From assembly GCA_017512885.1 (NCBI GenBank), contig JAFWEP010000006.1, forward strand, positions 124,001-188,000: DNA of 64,000 nt. Direction: 5' to 3'. The notes beneath the pieces were generated by a model. The model was not told the origin of the DNA and ran no database searches. It was given only the letters and a program-made list of their open reading frames with translations. Below, one piece after another: positions 36,108-49,024 of this stretch (position 1 is its first letter; the number at the start of each line of letters is the position of its first letter). Both the position numbers and the translations under genes were made by a program. This DNA comes from Erysipelotrichaceae bacterium. GTDB lineage: Bacteria > Bacillota_I > Bacilli_A > Erysipelotrichales > Erysipelotrichaceae.

Positions 36108-37700
36108 ATGGCAACAACTGTGAAAGAACTTTTGGCGTTACCGCTCTATCAGGAACATGTGCAGGTCGCCTGTGACCGGGGCCTGAACAACGAAGTATCC
36201 TATCTGACGGTCATGGAAGCACCGGATTTCCATATCGAGACGCTGGATCAGAAGACCATGATCCTTACGACCCTGTCTTCTTATTACCAGAGCACCAATT
36301 CGGTCAACGAGATCATCGAGAAGCTCTGTCAGGCAAAAGTCGCCGCGATCGCCATCAAATGTGGGCGCTTCCTGGAAAAGATCGATGACTCTACCGTCGA
36401 GATCGCTTTCCGTTACCGGGTCCCGCTCCTGGTCATCGACAGGGAGACCTACTTCCGGCAGATCCTGTCGGAATCGCTGGGAGCGATCGCCGATCAGCAG
36501 CATATCGTCATGCAGAAGACGATCCTCTTTGACAATGATCTGCAGGAAGTCATCTACCATAACGCCTCCTTTGAAGAGATCATCGCTGTCTTTACTTCCC
36601 GGGTCGACTGCTACTGCTGTCTGACTGATGCTGCCCAGCGGGTCCTCGTCGAAAGCAATGACCCGGAACTGAACCTGGGCTATCTGGATGTCCGCAAGGC
36701 CATCGAAGAATACCTGCGGGCCAAACGCAAGGACAGCCATACCACCTACTGGAACAACAGCCGGGAATATCTGCTGCCCTGCAGCAGTCAGGATGAAGTC
36801 AACGGTTACTTCTATGTCTGCTTCCCGGAAGAAGTCGACAGCATCTCCGTCTACTACCTGCGTTCGCTCTCCCGCACCCTCAGCATCAAGCTCTTTGAAC
36901 ATACGATCGAAGAGAAGGCTAAGGGCGAACTGGCAGCTGCCATCCTGGACGAGATCCTGTTCTCGGAGAACGTCAACGAGATGCTGACGATCGACCGGCT
37001 GAAGCTCTTCGGCTTCCTGCCACAGGAGCGCCATGTGCTGGTCCTGCTCAAACCGGAGGAAGACCACCGAGCCGGGACCCTGACCGAAGCGGTACAGAAC
37101 ATCTTCTCCCGTTATGCCGCGTCTGCCATCGCCTTTGAGCAGAGTGACCTCTTCATCGTCCTGCTGTCGGAGAGGGCCAAGCGCACCAACGCTCAGATCT
37201 ACCGCAGCATCGAAGAAGCGGCTGCCGAGGTCAACAAGCTCCTGAACGGCGGCTTCCGTTTCGGTGTCTCCACCATCGTCAACAAGTTCCGTCAGATCTC
37301 TTCCTGTTATACTCAGGCCAAGAAAGCTCTGAACTACGGCGAACTGATGAAGAATCAGAAGCAGTGTCACTTCTACAGTGACTATCTGGAACTGGGACTG
37401 CTCTCCCATGCCCTGCATACCAATACCAGCGGGATTCTCTTCCGGGACATCATCAATCCCATTCTGGAGTATGACCGCAAATACGAGATGACCCTCTGGG
37501 ATACCCTGATCCGCTGCTTCGAAGCGACCACTCTGGATTCTGTCGCCAAGGAGCTCTTCATCCATATCTCCACCCTGCGTTACCGGCTGCAGAAGATCGA
37601 AGTGCTGACCGGTTACAACTACTTCGATCCGAAGGACCGGATGATGTTGTATATGACCTATCTGCTCTACATGGCTGATCAGGCGGAGAAAGAAAACTAA
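36108..37700 (+). CDS. PucR-family transcriptional regulator
   Basis: 530 residues. The N-terminal ~125 residues are the purine-catabolism-regulator-like domain (VKELLALPLYQEHVQVACDRGLNNEVSYLTVME), followed by a GGDEF-like/CdaR middle region and a C-terminal PucR helix-turn-helix (LWDTLIRCFEATTLDSVAKELFIHISTLRYRLQKIEVLTGYN, residues ~463-505). Such proteins act as metabolite-sensing activators of catabolic genes. It stands next to the CoA-transferase/permease cluster, and a matching palindrome precedes all three units, so it is the likely regulator. AGGAAGGG before the ATG. Terminator follows. Confidence 0.93.
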   Translation: MATTVKELLALPLYQEHVQVACDRGLNNEVSYLTVMEAPDFHIETLDQKTMILTTLSSYYQSTNSVNEIIEKLCQAKVAAIAIKCGRFLEKIDDSTVEIAFRYRVPLLVIDRETYFRQILSESLGAIADQQHIVMQKTILFDNDLQEVIYHNASFEEIIAVFTSRVDCYCCLTDAAQRVLVESNDPELNLGYLDVRKAIEEYLRAKRKDSHTTYWNNSREYLLPCSSQDEVNGYFYVCFPEEVDSISVYYLRSLSRTLSIKLFEHTIEEKAKGELAAAILDEILFSENVNEMLTIDRLKLFGFLPQERHVLVLLKPEEDHRAGTLTEAVQNIFSRYAASAIAFEQSDLFIVLLSERAKRTNAQIYRSIEEAAAEVNKLLNGGFRFGVSTIVNKFRQISSCYTQAKKALNYGELMKNQKQCHFYSDYLELGLLSHALHTNTSGILFRDIINPILEYDRKYEMTLWDTLIRCFEATTLDSVAKELFIHISTLRYRLQKIEVLTGYNYFDPKDRMMLYMTYLLYMADQAEKEN

Positions 37701-37792: not shown

Positions 37793-38995
37793 TCAGATCT
37801 CGCCTTTTTCCCGCATATCCGCGATCTCTTCCCTGCTGAAGCCGATATGCTGAAGGACTTCCTCCGTATCCTGGGAAAGGACCGGAGAGGAGGAGCGGAC
37901 GTAGGGATTGGTCTTCGTCATCTTGATAGCCTGGTTGGTGATCCGGACTTTGCCGATCTTCGGATGATCGATGTCCGTAAACATCTTCCTCTCATCCCGG
38001 AAATGCGGATCATTGGCGACGTCTTCGATCGTATAGATCGGCGCGCAGGGCAGTCCGACCGCGATCAGTTTGTCAGCCAGTTCCCGGGTACCGTATCTCT
38101 TCGTTTCCGTTTCGATCAGCTGATCGAGGACTTCCCGGTTGACGACCCGGCCTTCGATCTTCTCGAAGCGGGGATCGCAGATCCATTCCTCGTGGCCGAT
38201 CTCCTTGGCGAACTTTGGCCATTCCCGGACCTGACCGGCCGAGATCGAGATGACGCCGTCTTTCGTGGCATAGGTATTGCCGGGAGCCGTCGCGTCGAAG
38301 GTGTTGCCGTGCAGACCGGGCACTCGTCCTTCGGTATTGTAGACAGCATTGAGCGAAGAGAGAGCGACGATGCAGGAATCCAGCAGGGCTACATCGATGT
38401 ACTGTCCCTCGCCGGTCTGTGAACGGTGATGCAGGGCGGCCAGGATCGCGATCAGCGCATTCTGGCCGGCCATGATGTCGGCGATCGAAGCCCCGCAGCG
38501 GATGTTGGGGCCGCCGGCCGGACCGGTCACGCTCATCAGACCGCTCATCGCCTGAGCGATGGGATCGAAGCAGGCCCGGGATGCATAGACGCCGCGTTGT
38601 CCGAAACCGGAGATCGAGGCATAGATGATCGTCGCGTTGATCTTCGTGACCTCTTCGTAGGAGAAGCCCAGACGTTCCATCACGCCTGGCCGGAAGTTCT
38701 CGACCAGGACATCGGCTTCGGCGATCAGCCGGCGCAGAGCCAGCTTGCCGCGTTCGCTCTTCAGGTTCAGGGTGATGCCCTTCTTGGAACGGTTGAAGGT
38801 AGCGAAGTAGGTGCTCTCGCCGTCGACTTTCGGCAGTGAATTGCGGGAGATATCCCCGCTGGGAGATTCCACTTTGATGACATCGGCTCCCAGATCGGCC
38901 ATCAGAGCCGTACAGAAGGGAGCAGCGACCATCTGTCCCATATCCAGTACTTTGATGCCTTTCAGCGCTGAACCGTCTGTCAGTGTTTCGTACAT
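37793..38995 (-). CDS. CaiB/BaiF-type (class III) CoA-transferase
   Basis: 400 residues, the normal length. Family features: LKGIKVLDMGQMVAAPFCTALMADLGADVIKVE (residues ~11-43), the LNLKSERGK loop, VENFRPGVMERLGFSYEEV (~98-116) and SISGFGQRG. The catalytic Asp fits the CFDPIAQAMSG segment (~143-153). These enzymes move CoA between carboxylic acids (formyl/oxalate, carnitine, bile-acid, phenyllactate types). It diverges from an SLC13-like permease. Its substrate is unknown; a second family member sits at 43313. AAGGA before the start. Confidence 0.95.
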   Translation of the reverse strand: MYETLTDGSALKGIKVLDMGQMVAAPFCTALMADLGADVIKVESPSGDISRNSLPKVDGESTYFATFNRSKKGITLNLKSERGKLALRRLIAEADVLVENFRPGVMERLGFSYEEVTKINATIIYASISGFGQRGVYASRACFDPIAQAMSGLMSVTGPAGGPNIRCGASIADIMAGQNALIAILAALHHRSQTGEGQYIDVALLDSCIVALSSLNAVYNTEGRVPGLHGNTFDATAPGNTYATKDGVISISAGQVREWPKFAKEIGHEEWICDPRFEKIEGRVVNREVLDQLIETETKRYGTRELADKLIAVGLPCAPIYTIEDVANDPHFRDERKMFTDIDHPKIGKVRITNQAIKMTKTNPYVRSSSPVLSQDTEEVLQHIGFSREEIADMREKGEI

Positions 38996-39265: not shown

Positions 39266-40552
39266 ATGACACTACAGATCGCCATCTCCTTTGTGATCAT
39301 CCTGCTGATGATCATCGGCTTCGTCGGTGAGATCTTCCCGCTCTGGGTCACGGCTCTGATGGGCTGCCTCAGTTTCTTCGTGACCGGGATCATCGACAAA
39401 TCTGCCGTATTCTCCGGATTCTCCAATGATACGGTCTTCATGATCGCCGGTACGATGATCGTCGGTGAAGCCATGTTCCAGACAGGAGCCGCGCAGTTCA
39501 TCGGCAAAAAGATCATCAATGCCGTCGGTTTCGATGAACGGCGCATGATATTCGTCCTGATCCTGGTCGCCGGGATCCTCTCCGCTTTCACCAGCAACTC
39601 TTCCGTCATGGCGATGTTCCTGCCTCTGATCCGCTCGGTCGCTGCCGCTTCCGACGGTAAGATCAAAGCCAAGCACATCGTGATGCCGGTCGGTATCTCG
39701 ACCATGGTCGGCGGAGCCTGCACCCTGGTCGGTTCCACTCCCCAGCTGGTCTCCCAGTCCATGCTGGAGCAGGCAGGACTGCGCACCTTCAGTTTCTTCG
39801 AACTGGGGATCACCGGTCTGCCGCTGTTGATCCTACTGGCGGTCTGGTTCGCTTTCATCGCCTATAGACCGTTAGTAAAGAGCGTCGCCTACATGCCGGA
39901 TGAGCCGGACTACATCGCGGAAATGAAAAAGAACGGGGATGAGGAAGAAGTCCGTAACCCCAAGATGTATGTCTGCTTCGTTATCCTGATCGTCATGGTC
40001 GGACTCTTCCTCTCCGGGATCTGGACCTCCGGTACGATCGCTACGATCGCCGGCCTGGCCTGCATCGTGACCGGCTGTCTGAGTGCCAAGACTGCCTTCG
40101 AGAAGATGGGCTGGAACTCGCTGGTCGTCGTCGGTTCGACTCTGGGCGTCGCTAAGGGTCTGAACGCTTCCGGCGCAGCGGCTTATGTCGCCAACGGTCT
40201 GGTCTCCCTGATCGGCACCAATGCCTCGGTGGTCATCGTCGTAGCGGTCTTCGGTCTGATGTGCACCATCATGAGCAACCTGCTTTCCCATACCGCGACG
40301 ATCTCTCTGCTGACCCCGATCTTCATCCCGCTGGCTCAGCAGATGGGGCTCGATCCGACCCTCTTCATCTATATGGTGACCTGCTTTGTCATGTGCGGTT
40401 ACGCTACCCCGCTGGGTGTCGCTTCCTATGCCATGACCCTGGCGGAAGGCTACTCCTTCAAGGACTACCAAAAGATCGGCGGACCCTTCAATATCGTGGC
40501 CTATATCGTCCTGGTACTGCTCTGCTCCGCCCGTTTCCTCTTCGGATTCTGA
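39266..40552 (+). CDS. SLC13/ion-transporter-superfamily permease
   Basis: 428 residues with about 11-12 membrane segments. The duplicated plan of the CitM/DASS group is visible: VAGILSAFTSNSSVMAMFLPL with VGGACTLVGSTPQLVSQS in the first half, and the related MSNLLSHTATISLLTPIFIPL with GYATPLGVASYAMTLAEGYSF in the second. These carriers import di- or tricarboxylates (or sulfate-like anions) with cations. It diverges from the CoA-transferase gene and precedes the main catabolic operon; a paralogue is at 47686. It may bring in the acid that the cluster consumes. Confidence 0.88.
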   Translation: MTLQIAISFVIILLMIIGFVGEIFPLWVTALMGCLSFFVTGIIDKSAVFSGFSNDTVFMIAGTMIVGEAMFQTGAAQFIGKKIINAVGFDERRMIFVLILVAGILSAFTSNSSVMAMFLPLIRSVAAASDGKIKAKHIVMPVGISTMVGGACTLVGSTPQLVSQSMLEQAGLRTFSFFELGITGLPLLILLAVWFAFIAYRPLVKSVAYMPDEPDYIAEMKKNGDEEEVRNPKMYVCFVILIVMVGLFLSGIWTSGTIATIAGLACIVTGCLSAKTAFEKMGWNSLVVVGSTLGVAKGLNASGAAAYVANGLVSLIGTNASVVIVVAVFGLMCTIMSNLLSHTATISLLTPIFIPLAQQMGLDPTLFIYMVTCFVMCGYATPLGVASYAMTLAEGYSFKDYQKIGGPFNIVAYIVLVLLCSARFLFGF

Positions 40553-40583
40553 TCCGTCAATACTAGTAAAACTCCCGATCTCC

Positions 40584-40603
40584 TTTCCCACTTTTGCAGG
40601 AAG
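40584..40603. promoter_or_regulatory. Operator candidate upstream of the main catabolic operon
   Basis: TTTCCCACTTTTGCAGGAAG keeps TCC-N10-GGA in the same phase as the sites at 35990 and 39158, though its centre differs. It is centred about 42 bases before the start inferred from TACACT (40624-40629), where a class II activator would bind; the -35 region has no consensus. Confidence 0.45.
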
Positions 40604-40661
40604 AAAGGGCGGGTGGGAATCGCTACACTGAAACTGAACAAAGACAAAGAAAGGAAGAAAT

Positions 40662-42101
40662 ATGAAATACGGAATCAAATCGACAGGTGCCTATCTGCCG
40701 TACCGTTATCTGCCGAAGGCGGACATCAGCAAAGCCTGGGGCGGTAAGGGTGGCAAAGGCGAAAAAAGCGTTGCCGATGTAGATGAAGATTCGATCACGA
40801 TGGCCGTGGAAGCAGCTCTGGGCTGCTTCCGGACGACGAAACGTTCCGATGTCGATGCTCTCTACTTCGCAACGACCACGGCTCCCTACGCGGAAAAACA
40901 GAACGCAGCGCTGATCTCCGTCGCGTGCGACCTGCTGGACGACAAGGTCTTCACCGCTGATGTGACCTCCTCCACCCGGGCCGGCACCAACGCACTGCGT
41001 CTGGCACTGGACAGCGTCAAGGCCGGATCGGCCGAGAAAGCGCTGGTCACTGCTGCGGAGACCCGCAACGGTTTCCCCAAATCGGCACAGGAAGCCGGTT
41101 TCGGTGACGCAGCCGCGGCTGTCGTCGTCGCTGCCGGAGAAGCGGAAGACCTGCTGGCTTCCGTAGATTTCCAGGCTTCCGTCAACGAAGAGATCAACGA
41201 CTACTGGCGCAATGCGGATGAGAAGTTCGTCCGTCACGCCGAGAAGCGTTTCTGTGATGAAGAAGGCTACCTGCTGCAGGTCGGGCTGATCCTGAAAAAG
41301 GTCCTCCAGTCCGGCTATTGTGCAGAAGATTTTGCGAAAGTCGTCCTGGTCAATCAGGGCAATCCCAAACTTCTGAAGAAACTGCTGGTTAAGAACGGCA
41401 TTGCCGAGGAGAAACTCGTATCTACGTTCACTGATACGGTCGGCGACAGCGGTGCAGCTCAGGCACTCCTGGGTCTCGTCAATGCTTTGGAGAATGCCGA
41501 AGAAGGAGAAAAGATCCTGCTGGTCGATTACGGCAACGGTGCTTCCGCTTTCGTCCTGACCGTACAACCGGGCATCAAAGATCGTCCGGTCGCGCAGATC
41601 GCTCACTATCTCGCGACCCGCGCGCCGCTGGATTCCTATGCCCGCTTCCTTTCCTGGCGGGGCATTGCCACGGCAGAGCCGGGCACGCCCTACAAGGTAC
41701 AGCCTTCCTGGGCGCAGACCTGGCGTGAACAGCGCATCAACCTGCGCTTACACGGCAGTGTCTGCAAGAAGTGCGGTTCCGCGCTCTTCCCGATCAACCG
41801 GGTCTGTGACTGCTGCGGCAGCAAGGACGAATACGAAGAGTTCTCGGCGCAGGAAGAGATCGGCAAGCTCTATACCTTCTCGATCGATGAATTCGCCGGA
41901 CAGAGCGATGATCCGGTCATCATCCAGGCTGTCGCCGAAGTCAGCAACGGTGCTCACATCTACACACTGATGACCGACTTCGTCCGTGAGGAAGTGAAGG
42001 TCGATATGGACGTAGAATTCACATTCCGCCGTTTCAATGAACTGGGCAACTTCCCGAACTACTTCTGGAAGATCCGTCCGGTCAGAAGGGAGGTCCGCTG
42101 A
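40662..42101 (+). CDS. HMG-CoA-synthase-like protein fused to a DUF35 (Zn-ribbon/OB) domain
   Basis: 479 residues. Residues ~1-340 follow the thiolase-fold HMG-CoA-synthase/KAS III family (GIKSTGAYLPYRYLP, LYFATTTAPYAEKQNA, AEEGEKILLVDYGNGASAF). The usual nucleophile context C-(K/Y)-A-G-T reads STRAGT here (Thr105), so the catalytic Cys is missing. Residues ~355-479 are a DUF35 domain with an intact zinc ribbon (Cys368, 371, 382, 385) and an OB-fold (IGKLYTFSIDEF). With the SCP-x thiolase encoded next, this is the set found in archaeal thiolase/HMGS/DUF35 complexes and in PhlA-PhlB-PhlC acyltransferases, but with A and B fused. Its role is probably structural or acyl-binding within a complex. 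Confidence 0.9.
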   Translation: MKYGIKSTGAYLPYRYLPKADISKAWGGKGGKGEKSVADVDEDSITMAVEAALGCFRTTKRSDVDALYFATTTAPYAEKQNAALISVACDLLDDKVFTADVTSSTRAGTNALRLALDSVKAGSAEKALVTAAETRNGFPKSAQEAGFGDAAAAVVVAAGEAEDLLASVDFQASVNEEINDYWRNADEKFVRHAEKRFCDEEGYLLQVGLILKKVLQSGYCAEDFAKVVLVNQGNPKLLKKLLVKNGIAEEKLVSTFTDTVGDSGAAQALLGLVNALENAEEGEKILLVDYGNGASAFVLTVQPGIKDRPVAQIAHYLATRAPLDSYARFLSWRGIATAEPGTPYKVQPSWAQTWREQRINLRLHGSVCKKCGSALFPINRVCDCCGSKDEYEEFSAQEEIGKLYTFSIDEFAGQSDDPVIIQAVAEVSNGAHIYTLMTDFVREEVKVDMDVEFTFRRFNELGNFPNYFWKIRPVRREVR

Positions 42102-42102
42102 A

Positions 42103-43308
42103 ATGGCTGAATACTTCAAGAATAAAAACATCAAGGATGAACTGGCTATCATCGGCATGGGCTGCACCAAGTTCGGTGAACGCTGGGATGTCGGTCTCTC
42201 CGACCTGATCATCGATGCCGCCTTCGAAGCCTTCGAAGATGCCGGCATCAAGCCCTCCGATGTGGAAGTCTGCTACTTCGCCAATACCAATGCTCCGAAC
42301 AACTGTTCCGGTACTCCGGTCACCGATGCCCTGAAGATCCACGGTATCCCGGTCACCCGCAACGAGAACTGGTGCACCTCCGGTCATATCGCTCTGATCA
42401 ATGCCTGCCTGGCTGTCTCCAGCGGCATGTGTGATATCGCCATGGCCATCGGTGCCGAAAAGCTGAAGGACAAGGGCTACGCCGGCATGGGCGTCGGCCG
42501 CGGTCTGGATCCGGTCCGGGAAGCCCGGCGGGATGCCCCCGGTTCCTTCGCGCTGATCGCCGAGGCCTACGGCAAGAAATACGGTTATTCCTACGATGAG
42601 ATCAAGACCGCGCTGGCGAAGATCGACATCAAGAACCACTATAACGGCTCATTGAGCCCGAAAGCCCATTTCCACAACAAGCTGACCATGGAACAGGTCA
42701 TGGCCGCACCGATGATCGCTTCGCCCTTAGGTCTCTATGACTGCTGCGGTACTTCCGACGGCGCGGCCTGCGCGATCATCACCCGGGCTGATCTGGCAGA
42801 GAAGTTCCGCAAGGATCCGATCTACATCAAGGGCTTCGGCTGCGCGACGGATATGATCACCCCGCACTACCGTCCTCGGGACTTCGACTGGACCAGTTTC
42901 GAAGCGTTGCGCAACTGCGCCAAAATGGCTTACGAGATGGCTGGCATCACCGATCCCCGCGAACAGATCGATCTGGCGGAAGTCCATGACTGCTTCTCGG
43001 TCACGGAGATGACGATCTACGAAGATTTCGGTTTCTCCAAGCGAGGAGAAGCCATCAAGGATATCAACGACGGTTTCTTCGAGAGGACCGGCGGCTTACC
43101 TGTCAACGTCGACGGCGGCCTGAAGTGCTTCGGCCATCCGGTCGGTGCCTCCGGCATCCGTATGACCTACGAGATCTACAAGCAGCTGCAGCACAAGGTC
43201 GATAATCCCGAGCGTCAGCTGGAAGATGTCCACATCGGTCTCTCCCAGACCTTCGGCGGTCCGCCGCAGATCGCTGCCTGCATGATCCTGGGCAATGAGA
43301 AAGGATAA
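42103..43308 (+). CDS. SCP-x-type thiolase (acyl-CoA C-C bond enzyme)
   Basis: 401 residues from the ATG at 42103 (AAGGGAGG upstream), 1 base after the preceding stop. Thiolase residues are present: Cys91 in NENWCTSGH, His in AEVHDCFS, GHPVGASG and a late Cys (QIAACMILG). SCP-x-type members form or cleave beta-keto acyl-CoA bonds, and several depend on a DUF35 partner (Ltp2/ChsH2 aldolase, PhlC/PhlB acylase, archaeal acetoacetyl-CoA thiolase). The fused HMGS-DUF35 protein encoded directly upstream is the obvious partner. Direction and substrate unknown. Confidence 0.93.
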   Translation: MAEYFKNKNIKDELAIIGMGCTKFGERWDVGLSDLIIDAAFEAFEDAGIKPSDVEVCYFANTNAPNNCSGTPVTDALKIHGIPVTRNENWCTSGHIALINACLAVSSGMCDIAMAIGAEKLKDKGYAGMGVGRGLDPVREARRDAPGSFALIAEAYGKKYGYSYDEIKTALAKIDIKNHYNGSLSPKAHFHNKLTMEQVMAAPMIASPLGLYDCCGTSDGAACAIITRADLAEKFRKDPIYIKGFGCATDMITPHYRPRDFDWTSFEALRNCAKMAYEMAGITDPREQIDLAEVHDCFSVTEMTIYEDFGFSKRGEAIKDINDGFFERTGGLPVNVDGGLKCFGHPVGASGIRMTYEIYKQLQHKVDNPERQLEDVHIGLSQTFGGPPQIAACMILGNEKG

Positions 43309-43312
43309 GAAG

Positions 43313-44497
43313 ATGAGTAAAGGTGCATTAGAAGGGATCCGGGTCCTGGACCTGGGCCGCGTCCTGGCAGCGCCTTCCGCTGCTGCCCTCCTGGGCGACA
43401 TGGGAGCCGATGTCATCAAAGTCGAACAGCCGGTCAAGGGCGATGATTCCCGTAACTTCGCTCCGATCAAGAACGGTGCTTCCGGTTACTACAAGAACTT
43501 CAACCGCAGCAAGCGCGGTATCACCCTCGATCTGAAAAAGGGGAAGGATGTCTTCCTCGATCTGGTGAAGACAGCCGATGTCGTCATTGAGAACTTCCGT
43601 CCCGGTACGATGGAAAAGCTCGGACTGGGCTATGAGGAACTGAAGAAGATCAATCCGCGTCTGATCTACGGTTCGATCTCCGGCTTCGGCGCGACCGGCC
43701 CCTACAAATACCGGGCCGGTTACGATACGATGTCCCAGGCCTGGGCCGGTGTCATGAGCATTACCGGCTGGCCGCAGGATGATCCGGTCCGCTGCGGCGC
43801 TTCCTTCGGGGATGTCGTCGGCGGTCTGAACCTGGTCATCGGCGTCCTGGCCGCGCTGCGTTACCGTGATCTGACTGGTGAAGGTCAGTTCATCGATATC
43901 TCACTGGTCGACGGCTGCATCACCTGTGAAGCTTCCATGATGCAGGTCTACCTGACCAACGGCACCGTTCCTACCAAGAACGGCAACTGCTACACTTCCT
44001 CCGCTCCGGGCGGCGGTTACCACACCAAAGACGGCTACATGGTCATCAACGGTTCCGCTCCGAAGTTCTGGGCTCTGCTCTGCAACGAGATGGGCAAGCC
44101 GGAACTGATCGAAGACGAACGCTTCGCTACCAACCCGCTGCGCGTCGCACACCGGGCGGAGCTCGATACGATCGTCGAAGCCTGGACGACTTCCCTGACC
44201 ACCAATGAGATCATGGACCGCCTGCTGCCGAAGGGCTTCGCCTGCGCTCCGATCTATTCCCTGGATCAGGTCGTAGCCGACGAACAGTTCTCGGTCTACC
44301 GGAACATGTTCCCGGAGATCGACGATCCCGATCATGGGAAGACCCGCTTCACCAATTCCGCCATCAAAATGTCGGAAACGATGCCCGAGATCCGCAAACC
44401 GGCTCCGCGCCTAGGTGAAGACAACGAGACCATCTACGGCGAACTGGGCTACTCGGAAGAGAAGATCGCCCAGCTGAAGGAAGACCAGGTCATCTGA
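43313..44497 (+). CDS. CaiB/BaiF-type CoA-transferase
   Basis: 394 residues from the ATG at 43313; an ATG 18 bases earlier lies in the thiolase's last codons. Family motifs: LEGIRVLDLGRVLAAPSAAALLGDMGADVIKVE, VIENFRPGTMEKLGLGYEEL and SISGFGATGPY; the catalytic Asp fits GYDTMSQAWAG (residues ~142-152). Only moderately like the 37793 enzyme, so the two probably use different acids or act at different steps (one activating the substrate, one recycling CoA). In the core operon between the thiolase and the hydrolase. Confidence 0.95.
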   Translation: MSKGALEGIRVLDLGRVLAAPSAAALLGDMGADVIKVEQPVKGDDSRNFAPIKNGASGYYKNFNRSKRGITLDLKKGKDVFLDLVKTADVVIENFRPGTMEKLGLGYEELKKINPRLIYGSISGFGATGPYKYRAGYDTMSQAWAGVMSITGWPQDDPVRCGASFGDVVGGLNLVIGVLAALRYRDLTGEGQFIDISLVDGCITCEASMMQVYLTNGTVPTKNGNCYTSSAPGGGYHTKDGYMVINGSAPKFWALLCNEMGKPELIEDERFATNPLRVAHRAELDTIVEAWTTSLTTNEIMDRLLPKGFACAPIYSLDQVVADEQFSVYRNMFPEIDDPDHGKTRFTNSAIKMSETMPEIRKPAPRLGEDNETIYGELGYSEEKIAQLKEDQVI

Positions 44498-44498
44498 C

Positions 44499-45308
44499 AT
44501 GATCAGTTCCTACTATGTCGATGTGGACGGGGTAAAGATCTGCGTCGAGACCAACAACGGCCCCAAAGAGAACGGCACGATGTGCTGCTTCGTCTCCGCT
44601 GGAAGGGACTCCCGCTCTTACCACGGTATCATGAACTATCTGCAGGACCGTTACGAAGTGATCTGCTTCGATATGCCCGGTCACGGCAAATCCTGGCCGC
44701 TGCCGGGACTGAAGTGCCTGGATAACTACGTGGACTTCTGTGAGTTCATCATCCGCACCTTCGAAGTCCTGGGCATTGAGAATCCGATCTGTCTGGGAGC
44801 AGCCTTAGGCGGCAATGCCTGCTTCTATCTGGCACAGCACATCCCGATCAGGGCGATCGTCTCGATGACCGGAACAGACTACTCTCCCTTCGTATCACAG
44901 AACGTGATCGACAACCTCGATCATCCCTACGCCAGTGTGCAGCATACCCATCTGGACTTCACGAACAGTCTGATCGGTTCCGCTGTCCCGCAGGAGAACC
45001 GTGATCTGATCCTCTGGGGCGTGATCAGTGAATGTGGCCGAACGAAGAAAGCCGATTACGGCGGAGTCTATAATGGTTTCGATGTCCGCAAGGATATGGA
45101 CAAAGTGACCTGCCCCTGTCTAATCATCCGCGGCGGAGATGACTGGAGTGAGAACCAGCAGATGCATGACGAAGTCATGGCCAGACTGGTCAACTGCCGC
45201 TATCTCAGCTACAAGGTGATCCCCGGGATCGCGCACTATCATCCGACGGAAGCGCCGGAACTGATCAGTGACGTGATCGTGCAATTCTTGCAGGAAGCAA
45301 AAGCTTAG
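44499..45308 (+). CDS. Alpha/beta hydrolase homologue lacking the nucleophile Ser
   Basis: 269 residues, 1 base after the CoA-transferase gene. The alpha/beta-hydrolase fold is clear (VICFDMPGHGKSWPLPG, LIIRGGDDW, late His in GIAHYHPTEAPE). At the nucleophile elbow it reads LGAALGGN, with Ala102 where the paralogue at 45729 has Ser104 (VGCSVAGN). It thus should not work as a normal serine hydrolase. It may be a non-catalytic partner, or may use another residue, as some C-C lyases and decarboxylase-like members do. Similar length and colinear sequence show it is a duplication of the 45729 gene. Confidence 0.9.
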   Translation: MISSYYVDVDGVKICVETNNGPKENGTMCCFVSAGRDSRSYHGIMNYLQDRYEVICFDMPGHGKSWPLPGLKCLDNYVDFCEFIIRTFEVLGIENPICLGAALGGNACFYLAQHIPIRAIVSMTGTDYSPFVSQNVIDNLDHPYASVQHTHLDFTNSLIGSAVPQENRDLILWGVISECGRTKKADYGGVYNGFDVRKDMDKVTCPCLIIRGGDDWSENQQMHDEVMARLVNCRYLSYKVIPGIAHYHPTEAPELISDVIVQFLQEAKA

Positions 45309-45325
45309 CTTGAAAAGGAGGAACT

Positions 45326-45718
45326 ATGTCGAATCAGGAAAAGCTTGAGAAATTCAAAAAACTTCAGGAAATGATCAACGGTCCGGAAGCCGCTGAATTC
45401 CTGGACTACTGGGATGGTCGTTTCTTCACGGGAGATATGACCTTCATCATGAACGGAGTCCCCTTCAACATGTTTTTCTACAAGGGGAAGATGATCGACG
45501 TCTTCATCGGTCAGCCGTCTAACGGCTACAACGTCGGTCTCTCCGGAGATGAGGAACAGTGGAACACCTTCTTCCAGCACCGCAACTTCCAGCTCGCTAC
45601 TTCGGTCAAGCACTGTGACCGCCCCTTCACCAATCTGGGAAGCGCTCTGGCCAATCGTCAGAACAACGCTGTCATCGCTCAGGTCGCCCGCTTAACAGCG
45701 AAGGCGTTCTGCGACTAA
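45326..45718 (+). CDS. Small SCP2-like protein (tentative)
   Basis: 130 residues with AAGGAGG before the ATG. N-terminal helix (KLEKFKKLQEMINGPEAAEFLDYW), then beta strands DMTFIMNGVPFNMFFYKGKMIDVFIG and NVGLSGDEEQWNTFFQ. The order strand-rich half, then 'edW' helix, recalls sterol-carrier-protein-2 domains that bind hydrophobic acyl chains, but the match is weak. Located between the two hydrolase paralogues, it may bind the same ligand. Otherwise unknown. Confidence 0.75.
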   Translation: MSNQEKLEKFKKLQEMINGPEAAEFLDYWDGRFFTGDMTFIMNGVPFNMFFYKGKMIDVFIGQPSNGYNVGLSGDEEQWNTFFQHRNFQLATSVKHCDRPFTNLGSALANRQNNAVIAQVARLTAKAFCD

Positions 45719-45728
45719 GGAGGACACA

Positions 45729-46550
45729 ATGGCTATTCGCGGCGCATATGTGAATGTCAAGGGCATTCAGACTTACTATGAGACCAACGATGGTCCGAAG
45801 AACCCGCATGGCACGCTGGTATGCCTGCATACCGCCGGCCGTGACACCCGTCAGTACCATGGTCTGATGGACTACTTCCAGGATAAGTACAATGTCATAG
45901 CCTTCGATTTCCCAGCTCATGGCAAATCCTGGCCGCTCCCCGGTCTGACCGGCATCAAGACCAAGGAAGAATACGGCGAATTCACCTGGGCTTTCATCCA
46001 GGAACTGGGCATCGATGATCCGATCGTCGTCGGCTGCTCTGTCGCCGGCAACATGGTCTACTACCTGGCAGAGAACTATCCGGTCCGGGCAATGGTCTCC
46101 ATGCAGGGATCCCCGCAGATCCTGGCCATGCAGACGAGCTACGGCACCACCGTTGACCTGCTGGACAACCCCTATGTTTCCTGCCAGCACTCACACTGGG
46201 ATTTCTCCGAGAGCCTGATGGGCAAGAAGTGCCCGAAGGAAGCGCATGACCTGATCATGTGGGGCGTCTGCCAAGAGATCGGCCGCACCAAGAAGTGTGA
46301 CCTGTCCCTCTACAACAACTACGATGTCACGGCTGATCTCGATAAGATCACCTGTCCGTCCCTGCTGATCCGCGGTCTGGATGACTGGAACGTTCCGGAT
46401 CATTACTACGAGACAGCGATCAAGGGTATGGTCAACTGCCCGAAACTGGAATGGAAGAAGGTCGAAGGCTACGGTCACTTCATCGCTGTTGAAGCTCCGG
46501 AGATCGTCGGCGAACTGATCGACAACTTCCTGAACGAAGCAAACGCGTAA
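45729..46550 (+). CDS. Alpha/beta hydrolase with intact nucleophile
   Basis: 273 residues, AAGGAGGACACA before the start. Elbow VGCSVAGN with Ser104; FDFPAHGKSWPLPGL; acid in LLIRGLDDWNVPDHYY; His in VEGYGHFIAVEAPE. The group includes enol-lactonases, C-C bond hydrolases (MhpC/BphD) and esterases. The neighbouring muconate-cycloisomerase-like gene starts 4 bases on, which recalls the CatB/PcaD pair of the beta-ketoadipate pathway, where a lactone made by one is opened by the other. That reading is inference. Confidence 0.93.
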   Translation: MAIRGAYVNVKGIQTYYETNDGPKNPHGTLVCLHTAGRDTRQYHGLMDYFQDKYNVIAFDFPAHGKSWPLPGLTGIKTKEEYGEFTWAFIQELGIDDPIVVGCSVAGNMVYYLAENYPVRAMVSMQGSPQILAMQTSYGTTVDLLDNPYVSCQHSHWDFSESLMGKKCPKEAHDLIMWGVCQEIGRTKKCDLSLYNNYDVTADLDKITCPSLLIRGLDDWNVPDHYYETAIKGMVNCPKLEWKKVEGYGHFIAVEAPEIVGELIDNFLNEANA

Positions 46551-46554
46551 GACC

Positions 46555-47664
46555 ATGGCAAAGATCGTTGATGTCGAACTGATCCCGATCGCGATCCCCC
46601 AGACGTATGAAACGCACTGGGCCAACGGTCAGATCAGCGTCGCCAAGCATACCCTGATCAAAGTCATCGCCGAAGACGGTACCTACGGTGTCGGGGAAGC
46701 CGTACCGCGTACCGGTATCTACGGTGAGACGCAGGAATCCATCCTGCAGGTGCTGCGGGAAGCGATCATCCCGCGCATCCTGGGCATCGATTCCTTCAAT
46801 ACCGAACTGCTCTGGGAACGCATGAACGAGACCCCGTTCAATTTCGTTGCCAAGGGTACGGTCGATGTCGCTGTCCACGACCTGAACGGCAAGCTACTGG
46901 GTGTTCCGACTGCTTATCTCTTAGGCGGTGTCTATCGCGAGAGAGTGCCGCTCTGCTGGGTCTCCGGCGGTTCCTGGTTCCCGCATGACTTCATCATCGA
47001 TGAGACCAAGCGCATCATCTCCGAAGGCTACAAGGGCATCAAGCTGAAAGCCGGACACTTCAAGGAAGACGTAGAACTGGCCAAGGAGATCCGCAGCTTC
47101 GCACCGGAAGACTTTGAGATCTACCTCGATCCCAACCAGCTCTACACCCGTGAACAGCTGATGTATGTCGGCGCACACCTCTCCGGTGTCGTCAACGCCA
47201 TCGAAGAGCCGGTACCGGCCTGGAACGACGTGACCCGCAAGGAATTCACGGAACGTTACCCGCTGATCCCGCTGCTTTCCGATGAGAGCACCTTCTCGGT
47301 CCCGGATACTTACCGTCAGATGCAGTTAGGGGCTATCAAGCGTCTGGCGATCAAGATCCCGCGCACCGGTTACACGATGTCCAAGAAACTGGTCCATCTG
47401 GCCGAATGCAACCACATGCAGACCCAGATCTCCACACAGGCCGAGACAGACCTCGGCTGCGCAGCCTGCCTGACCTTCGCTGTTTCCAGCCGTCAGATCA
47501 GCCTGCCCTGTGAGATCGCCTACTATAAGAAAGGCATGTATCCGAAGTCCCTGTTAGTCGAACCGTTAAAGATCGAAGACGGCTACATGGTCTTCCCGAA
47601 CAAACCCGGTATCGGTGTTGATGTCAACTGGGATGTCATCGAAGAATATCGCGTAAACAAATAA
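46555..47664 (+). CDS. Muconate-lactonizing/mandelate-racemase-type enzyme (enolase superfamily)
   Basis: 369 residues. The MLE-subgroup active site is complete: Lys163-x-Lys165 (IKLKAG), metal ligands Asp192 (YLDPNQ), Glu218 (IEEPVP) and Asp243 (LLSDES), and the second base Lys267 (AIKIPR). Such enzymes abstract a proton next to a carboxylate to cycloisomerise, racemise, epimerise or dehydrate. In this cluster a lactone-forming or dehydrating step is plausible. The ribosome-binding site is weak (4-base gap after the hydrolase), suggesting coupling. Confidence 0.95.
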   Translation: MAKIVDVELIPIAIPQTYETHWANGQISVAKHTLIKVIAEDGTYGVGEAVPRTGIYGETQESILQVLREAIIPRILGIDSFNTELLWERMNETPFNFVAKGTVDVAVHDLNGKLLGVPTAYLLGGVYRERVPLCWVSGGSWFPHDFIIDETKRIISEGYKGIKLKAGHFKEDVELAKEIRSFAPEDFEIYLDPNQLYTREQLMYVGAHLSGVVNAIEEPVPAWNDVTRKEFTERYPLIPLLSDESTFSVPDTYRQMQLGAIKRLAIKIPRTGYTMSKKLVHLAECNHMQTQISTQAETDLGCAACLTFAVSSRQISLPCEIAYYKKGMYPKSLLVEPLKIEDGYMVFPNKPGIGVDVNWDVIEEYRVNK

Positions 47665-47685
47665 AAGAAAAGGGAGAAACAAGAA

Positions 47686-48978
47686 ATGCCTATTTTTGGG
47701 GAATTACTGGCGCCTTACGCTCCGGTCGTCTGTCTGATCATCCTGATCATCACCCTCATCCTCTTCGCTACCGAAGTCTTTAAATCCGGTATCACAGCGA
47801 TCGCCTGCGGTATCGTCATGAACCTCTGCGGCTTCATCACCAATGCCGAATTCACTTCCGGCTTCTCGAACACAGTCACCATCTTCTGCTTAGGTATCGC
47901 CATGGTTGGTACGGCAATGGCCGAGACCGGCTGCGCTTCCTACCTCGGCAAGAAGCTGCTGTCTGTCGTGAAACTCGATGAGAGAGGCACGATCGTCGTC
48001 CTGTTCACGCTGGTCGCGATCCTGTCCGCCTTCCTGAACAACACTTCCTGTGTCGTCATCGGTCTCTACCTCTCCATCGCGATCTGCCAGTCTTCCGAAG
48101 GCCGCTTCAAAGTCCGCAACTTCCTGATGCCGATGGGTATCGCCGGTGTCTGCGGCGGCGGCGCTTCCATGATCGGTTCCACCACTCAGCTGTCCATCGC
48201 GGCATTGCTGCCGGATATGGGCTTCGAAATGAAGATGTGGGACCTGGCCAAGCCGGGCGTCATCGTACCGCTGATCTTCATCGTCTGGTACTACTTCTTC
48301 GGCTACAACATCATGCAGAAGACCTTCGACTTCCCGGAACCGGAAAGCATGAAGGATCTGAACTCCAGCGCCCTAAAGGAATTTGATCCAAAGAACTTCA
48401 AGGGCTGGATCCCGGCAATCATCCTGGTCGGCTGTATCGCTCTGACCCTCCTCGGCTGGAACATCGCGATCGTCGGAATGATGGGTATGTGCTTAGCCAT
48501 CATGACCGGCAGTATCTCCTTCAAGAGAGCGGTGGAAACGACGGACTGGAACGTCTTCTTCCTGATCGCCGGCGGCGTTGGTTTCGCAGCCGGTGTCAAG
48601 AACGCGGGTACCGCGGACATGGTCGCCAACTGGATCGTCCGCGTCCTGGGCGCTGCTCCGCCGATCGTCTATCTGGTCATCTTCACGATCCTCTGCGCCA
48701 TCATGACCAACGTCATGACCAACATCGGCACGGCGCTGATCATGACGCCGATCGCGGCTGCGGTCGCGGCACAGGCCGGCTTCAGCGCTTACCCGCTGAT
48801 CCTCTGCGTCATCTGGGGCGCCAACATGCCTTACTCCACCCCGGTCGGTGCTTCTCCGATCACCATGACCATGATGGGCGGATACCGATTCAAGGACTAC
48901 ACACGAGTCAATATCATCCCGAACATCGTCGCTGCGATCGCATTGGCTCTTCTGACTCCGATCTTCTGGCCGCTTTGA
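47686..48978 (+). CDS. SLC13/ion-transporter-superfamily permease
   Basis: 430 residues, 11-12 membrane segments, AAGGGAG upstream. Same architecture as the permease at 39266: AILSAFLNNTSCVVIGLYLS with GVCGGGASMIGSTTQLS in the first half, and MTNVMTNIGTALIMTPIAAAV with ANMPYSTPVGASPITMTMMGGYRFKDY in the second. Probably imports a carboxylate used by the operon. Two such carriers in one cluster suggest either import and export or two related substrates. Good terminator after it. Confidence 0.9.
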   Translation: MPIFGELLAPYAPVVCLIILIITLILFATEVFKSGITAIACGIVMNLCGFITNAEFTSGFSNTVTIFCLGIAMVGTAMAETGCASYLGKKLLSVVKLDERGTIVVLFTLVAILSAFLNNTSCVVIGLYLSIAICQSSEGRFKVRNFLMPMGIAGVCGGGASMIGSTTQLSIAALLPDMGFEMKMWDLAKPGVIVPLIFIVWYYFFGYNIMQKTFDFPEPESMKDLNSSALKEFDPKNFKGWIPAIILVGCIALTLLGWNIAIVGMMGMCLAIMTGSISFKRAVETTDWNVFFLIAGGVGFAAGVKNAGTADMVANWIVRVLGAAPPIVYLVIFTILCAIMTNVMTNIGTALIMTPIAAAVAAQAGFSAYPLILCVIWGANMPYSTPVGASPITMTMMGGYRFKDYTRVNIIPNIVAAIALALLTPIFWPL

Positions 48979-48991
48979 TCTGTAACTGAAG

Positions 48992-49024
48992 GGGTGCTCC
49001 GGAAACGGAGCACCCTGTTTCTTT
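48992..49024 (+). terminator. Terminator after the second permease
   Basis: GGGTGCTCCG-GAAA-CGGAGCACCC (10 bp, GNRA loop), then TGTTTCTTT. Confidence 0.88.

Follow-up and report, generated by a model that had tools for sequence, protein, structure and literature searches.

What can a protein contribute that has the fold of hydroxymethylglutaryl-CoA synthase (HMGS) without its catalytic residues, that carries a DUF35 domain on the same chain, and whose gene stands directly before that of an intact thiolase? This question is raised by a 64,000-nucleotide stretch of DNA from an Erysipelotrichaceae bacterium, an anaerobe of the gut type (the whole stretch is called the window below), for which a sequence-only reading had described an HMGS-like/DUF35 fusion beside a thiolase and proposed an acyl complex of either the PhlACB or the archaeal type. 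The two genes and their make-up have been confirmed by domain and PDB matches (Table 1). Here, we consider what the fusion may do, how widespread the pair is, and which reaction its operon points to.

The fused protein and its thiolase

The N-terminal half of the fusion (about residues 1-334) belongs to the HMGS/KAS III fold (PF08545, PF08541), with 6esq_I as its top PDB match (E 1.7e-29) and the PhlA-type 9skh_A at E 4.9e-29. The C-terminal part comprises a zinc ribbon (Cys368/371/382/385) and an OB fold (about residues 400-470); PF12172 scores slightly below its cut-off, and the DUF35 subunit 6esq_E is matched with E 8.4e-12. In the alignment with 6esq_I, 'FACKAGT' stands opposite 'SSTRAGT', so that Thr105 takes the place of the HMGS cysteine, as the sequence-only reading had proposed from STRAGT; beyond that reading, the catalytic Glu and His are lost as well, being replaced by Thr72 and Asn231, respectively. 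When the bacterial HMG-CoA synthase model was run against the bacterium's own genome, the fusion was the single match, and no protein reached the cut-off.

Only 1 bp separates the end of the fusion gene from the thiolase gene, whose start we set at 42103 with the support of a syntenic gene in a Solobacterium MAG from roe deer omasum (locus L026); in the open reading frame list, the gene begins earlier, at an ATG (42037) still within the fusion gene. The thiolase exceeds the curated NCBIfam PRK06157.1 cut-off (499.5 vs 403), finds its top PDB match in 6esq_A (E 5e-61), and also matches BbsB (7pxp_C, E 4e-39). Not only Cys91, which had been recognized before, but also HDCF at 295-298 (His295) and GHP at 344-346 (His345) are present. 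With HDCF and Cys91 in place, the default expectation is cleavage or formation of a C-C bond through acyl-enzyme chemistry. A steroid aldolase of the Sal/Ltp2 kind was ruled out on the same residues, as in those aldolases the motif reads YDCY or YDHF and the Cys nucleophile is missing.

Occurrence of the pair in bacteria and archaea

With each species represented by one genome, a scan confirmed at least 554 relatives of the fusion, a frequency in the databases that the sequence-only reading had missed. The best 80 of these were retained and come from Firmicutes, Chloroflexota, deltaproteobacterial lineages, Actinobacteria, Proteobacteria and archaea; being the loci most like the window, they yield counts that hold for the near part of the fusion family. 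The search pattern (DED..TM) corresponds to about residues 41-49 and is distant from the active site. Plasmid copies of the fusion occur in Rhodococcus, Sphingobium and haloarchaea. Among 395 genomes of the same class and 392 of the phylum, no other carrier was found of the fusion (at E<=1e-25) or of the 130-aa protein described below. That the pair is not a chance arrangement follows from this number of related stretches together with locus L026, where homologues with 85 % (fusion) and 93 % (thiolase) identity lie in the same order.

None of the 90 aligned fusions has Cys at position 105, which is occupied by Leu in 73, Thr in 7, Ile in 5 and others in the remainder, and the following residue is Arg or Lys in 87 of the 90. 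The HMGS Glu position holds Thr, Val, Ser or Ala, and the His position mainly Ala, Gly, Ser or Cys (Asn in the window); all four zinc cysteines are conserved. The thiolase gene lies immediately 3' of the fusion gene in 74 of 86 loci, with four more running out at a contig edge within 400 bp, and Cys91, HDCF and GHP are intact in the thiolases of all 66 complete pairs (66/66). Pairwise distance matrices of the two proteins correlate with r 0.81 (permutation maximum 0.20 in 1000 permutations), which partly reflects shared ancestry. A precedent is provided by PhlACB, whose HMGS-like PhlA lacks both Cys and Glu, whose PhlC depends on an essential Cys88, and in which the substrate is contacted by PhlC residues only, although activity requires all three subunits (PMC6392133). 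The cysteine-free fusions, the invariant thiolase residues, the co-variation and the PhlA precedent thus support the earlier proposal of a thiolase-centred C-C bond reaction with a scaffolding, non-catalytic HMGS fold.

By comparison, then, a large bacterial and archaeal family whose best existing annotations are HMG-CoA synthase or OB-fold protein lacks the HMGS catalytic residues throughout and accompanies an intact thiolase, a result that sets right what is probably an erroneous annotation and opens the pseudo-enzyme's role to direct tests. The fusion of locus L112 (14236-15672), which likewise lacks the HMGS catalytic residues, barely passes the NCBIfam model PRK04262.1 'hydroxymethylglutaryl-CoA synthase' (245.6 vs 244), and this pass is a likely source of wrong annotation. 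DUF35 domains have been described as fused to members of the thiolase superfamily and also to SCP2 (PMC2954200); the fused protein itself was not the subject of any paper in our literature searches.

Elsewhere, the pair is accompanied by genes for acyl-CoA dehydrogenases, SDR proteins, crotonases or methylmalonyl-CoA mutase (MCM), and given these differing enzyme genes its substrate clearly varies. Tandem fusion-thiolase pairs, two each, occur on three Chloroflexota contigs (L030, L032, L040). In an Oscillospiraceae MAG (L027, 1995-6213), a second SCP2-type thiolase, a stand-alone DUF35 protein, dihydroxyacetone kinase-like subunits and an SMP-30 lactonase are encoded beside the fusion.

The operon and its relatives

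Nine genes follow one another on the + strand from 39266 to 48978. DASS1 is set apart from the fusion by 109 bp; all other gaps measure 21 bp or less, and the CaiB2 gene overlaps the thiolase gene by 14 bp (Table 1). The CaiB1 gene is convergent to that of the PucR-type regulator and divergent from the operon. The hairpin directly behind DASS2 probably marks the operon end, judged from its sequence; a promoter scan returned fewer sites than in shuffled sequences.

Table 1. Genes and other features of the operon region, with positions counted from the first letter of the window.
Feature	Position	Strand	Size	Remarks
PucR-type transcriptional regulator	36108..37700	+	530 aa	syntenic in L026, L029
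CaiB1, class III CoA transferase	37793..38995	-	400 aa	PF02515 E 5.8e-118
DASS/CitMHS anion transporter 1 (DASS1)	39266..40552	+	428 aa	PF03600, PF00939
HMGS-like (pseudo-HMGS)/DUF35 fusion	40662-42101	+	479 aa	
SCP2/archaeal-type thiolase	42103-43308	+	401 aa	
CaiB2, class III CoA transferase	43295..44497	+	400 aa	PF02515 E 1.1e-125
Alpha/beta hydrolase 1	44499..45308	+	269 aa	PF00561; top NCBIfam PcaDC/PcaD, below cut-off
SCP2-fold protein	45326..45718	+	130 aa	no Pfam match; AF2 prediction
Alpha/beta hydrolase 2, lactonase-like	45729..46550	+	273 aa	PF00561; top NCBIfam PcaDC/PcaD, below cut-off
Muconate-cycloisomerase-like enolase-superfamily enzyme	46555..47664	+	369 aa	TIGR02534 147 bits, below cut-off
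DASS anion transporter 2 (DASS2)	47686..48978	+	430 aa	PF03600 E 5.5e-63, TIGR00785
Terminator-like hairpin, directly 3' of DASS2	48991..49016	+	11 pairs	pattern scan only

The cycloisomerase-like enzyme carries K163xK165, D192, E218, D243, K267 and E320; the enolase-superfamily metal ligands and bases K163/K165, D192, E218, D243 and K267 are invariant in five homologues. A profile of these five cycloisomerases finds muconate cycloisomerase 3dg3 as its top PDB match (E 1.2e-79, 271 bits) ahead of 2p88 (208 bits) and dipeptide epimerase (186 bits); with 147-189 bits, the cycloisomerase-like enzymes do not reach the TIGR02534 cut-off (335). PcaD-type enol-lactonase models are likewise among the nearest to hydrolase 2 and its relatives, though far below their cut-offs (49-62 bits for the hydrolases against 256 for the PcaD model). 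Hydrolase 2 keeps its nucleophilic Ser (GCSVAG) and is a tandem paralogue of hydrolase 1, in which Ser is replaced by Ala (GAALGG in the window, GCALGG in L026, 12864-13673) while Asp and His are kept; from its sequence, hydrolase 1 would be a second pseudo-enzyme of the operon. The top NCBIfam models of CaiB2, below cut-off, are succinate-glutarate and mesaconate CoA transferases.

Sequence searches of the PDB and Pfam with the 130-aa protein returned nothing reliable. Its AF2 model, built from six sequences (pLDDT 90.4) and replacing an earlier one from three (pLDDT 61), has an SCP2 fold (2cx7, Z 11.9), and its gene adjoins that of hydrolase 2 in all related operons seen. The protein is possibly a ligand carrier or the missing isomerase, and the fold suggests a ligand more hydrophobic than a C6 diacid.

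L026 contains all of these genes in synteny, at 58-93 % identity. In Sporomusa sp. KB1 (L029) and in L112, both Negativicutes, the fusion and thiolase are kept together with the CoA transferase, hydrolase 2, cycloisomerase and 130-aa protein, and the place of DASS is taken by MFS transporters; among the operon relatives, transporters of other families (AAHS-like MFS, SSS, TRAP) occur. A partial core of cycloisomerase, hydrolase 2 and 130-aa protein is found in L113, where a class I CoA transferase is nearest to glutaconate CoA transferase (1poi, E 3.6e-47). In the Oscillospiraceae MAG mentioned above, the fusion-thiolase pair lies at one contig end (L027), and a thiolase, a CoA transferase, the 130-aa protein, hydrolases and a TRAP transporter lie at another (L114); we infer that the two ends belong together. 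Neither an intradiol dioxygenase (PF00775) nor a muconolactone isomerase (CatC, PF02426) was found in four operon-bearing genomes, so that the isomerase step lacks an assigned enzyme and the substrate would need an external source. For muconate use by anaerobes and for the catabolism of Sporomusa sp. KB1, literature searches yielded no paper.

Proposed reaction, alternatives and known systems

The operon context, comprising CoA transferases, a cycloisomerase, lactonase-like hydrolases and anion transporters, indicates catabolism, an aspect absent from the sequence-only reading, and by its sequence the gene set would imply the order cycloisomerase, lactonase, CoA transferase, thiolase, which is that of the lower beta-ketoadipate pathway. 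Our best explanation, which taken as a whole we consider to have an even chance, is that fusion and thiolase form one thiolase complex that carries out thiolysis at the end of an anaerobic pathway for lactones or dicarboxylates similar to this route; within it, we infer the physical complex, the direction, the substrate and the individual enzyme reactions. A small anionic compound would be imported by DASS and cyclo-isomerised by the muconate-cycloisomerase-like enzyme, the ring would be opened by the lactonase-like hydrolase with the help of the SCP2-fold protein, and a class III CoA transferase would add CoA. In the final step, with the complex working in the cleaving direction, Cys91 would accept the acyl group from the 3-oxoacyl-CoA, the HDCF/GHP residues would serve proton transfer and enolate handling, and thiolysis would give two acyl-CoAs. 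The pseudo-HMGS/DUF35 chain would assemble the oligomer and aid CoA binding without catalysis, the role that DUF35 and PhlA have in known complexes; DUF35 connects the subunits in both PhlACB and the archaeal complex (PMC12329534). The route would then be a lower beta-ketoadipate pathway with several steps taken over by unrelated enzymes. Several observations count against this reading: the cycloisomerase and the hydrolases score far under the equivalog thresholds, the search of four genomes for the CatC-family isomerase and the dioxygenase was negative, the SCP2 fold points to a more hydrophobic ligand, and the pair has other gene neighbours elsewhere.

A more far-reaching version of this proposal, which we consider tentative and rather improbable, holds that strict anaerobes of rumen and gut process external diacids of the muconate or lactone type by a complete pathway that needs no oxygen and follows beta-ketoadipate logic with unrelated isomerase, CoA transferase and thiolase; the pseudo-HMGS/DUF35-thiolase complex would be this thiolase, and the SCP2-fold protein might be the isomerase. 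If confirmed, beta-ketoadipate-type chemistry would reach oxygen-free gut habitats.

Alternatively, the pair could be a thiolase for alpha-branched 3-oxoacyl-CoAs that releases propionyl-CoA or a substituted acyl-CoA like SCP-x or BbsAB, in an operon whose substrate for degradation would be a branched or lipophilic acid or lactone and not a diacid of the muconate kind. Although we hold this to be unlikely, it stays a serious rival in view of the SCP2 fold encoded within the operon and of contexts elsewhere: MCM is close to 7 of 74 loci, and in a Thermodesulfobacteriota MAG (L028, 4707-9934) the pair (44 %/66 % identity) adjoins MCM and a carboxyltransferase. The resemblance to BbsB likewise fits, but all operon relatives have transporter types for small solutes, the CoA transferases are nearest to dicarboxylate enzymes, and the window operon is without MCM.

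A PhlACB-like C-acyltransferase, which would move an acyl group between carbon nucleophiles (e.g., phenolic or beta-diketone) without CoA, shares all three folds and the loss of Cys and Glu from the HMGS-like part. This reading, one of the two types first proposed for the pair, is nevertheless improbable, as the thiolase retains HDCF and is far nearer to the CoA-dependent archaeal acetoacetyl-CoA thiolase (210 bits) than to PhlC (89-93 bits), CoA transferase genes adjoin in the operon and its relatives, and neither a type III polyketide synthase nor another phenolic biosynthesis gene is among the genes at 36-50.5 kb. The same low probability attaches to a thiolase that works in the condensing direction and makes a 3-oxoacyl-CoA for a biosynthetic product: the archaeal relative does condense acetyl-CoA (PMC6392133), but the operon contains no reductase, dehydratase, polyketide or isoprenoid genes, and two importers together with two CoA transferases speak for a substrate that is taken up and broken down. 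Finally, an active HMG-CoA synthase or an enzyme with a different nucleophile, to which the high PRK04262.1 score (one relative barely over the cut-off) might point, is hardly conceivable, given that the Cys, Glu and His positions are lost throughout the 90 aligned fusions and that position 105 is mainly Leu, so that Thr is not a conserved substitute.

Our preferred reading, a thiolase complex acting in catabolism, can be set against several known systems, from which it emerges that the arrangement of the pair belongs to a known kind, here in a fused form that is widespread, and that the operon around the pair is new. The archaeal thiolase/HMGS complex (6ESQ) is the top PDB sequence match for all three parts, but its HMGS is active (Cys114, Glu82), whereas both positions are lost in the window, where the two chains are fused; an archaeal (mevalonate) type of complex, the other one first proposed, is thus not supported. 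Closer in residues is PhlACB of Pseudomonas protegens (PDB 5M3K), in which an HMGS-like subunit without Cys and Glu and a DUF35 subunit likewise accompany a thiolase with the sole catalytic Cys; however, its A and B components are separate chains, and it acts on a phenolic substrate independently of CoA from within a biosynthetic operon, that for phloroglucinols with phlD. BbsAB (benzoylsuccinyl-CoA thiolase, PDB 7PXP) is, in turn, a catabolic SCP2-type thiolase with a DUF35 partner, and its pathway includes a class III CoA transferase, but it lacks an HMGS-like partner, and the toluene pathway genes are absent from the window operon. In eukaryotic SCP-x, an SCP2-type thiolase is also accompanied by an SCP2 fold, there fused to it, whereas in the window this fold is encoded by a separate gene beside a hydrolase. 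Compared with the lower beta-ketoadipate pathway (CatB, CatC, CatD/PcaD, PcaIJ, PcaF), the window operon does without a CatC-family isomerase, uses class III instead of class I CoA transferases, replaces PcaF by an SCP2/archaeal-type thiolase with a pseudo-HMGS, and adds an SCP2-fold protein, in hosts without a ring-cleaving dioxygenase.
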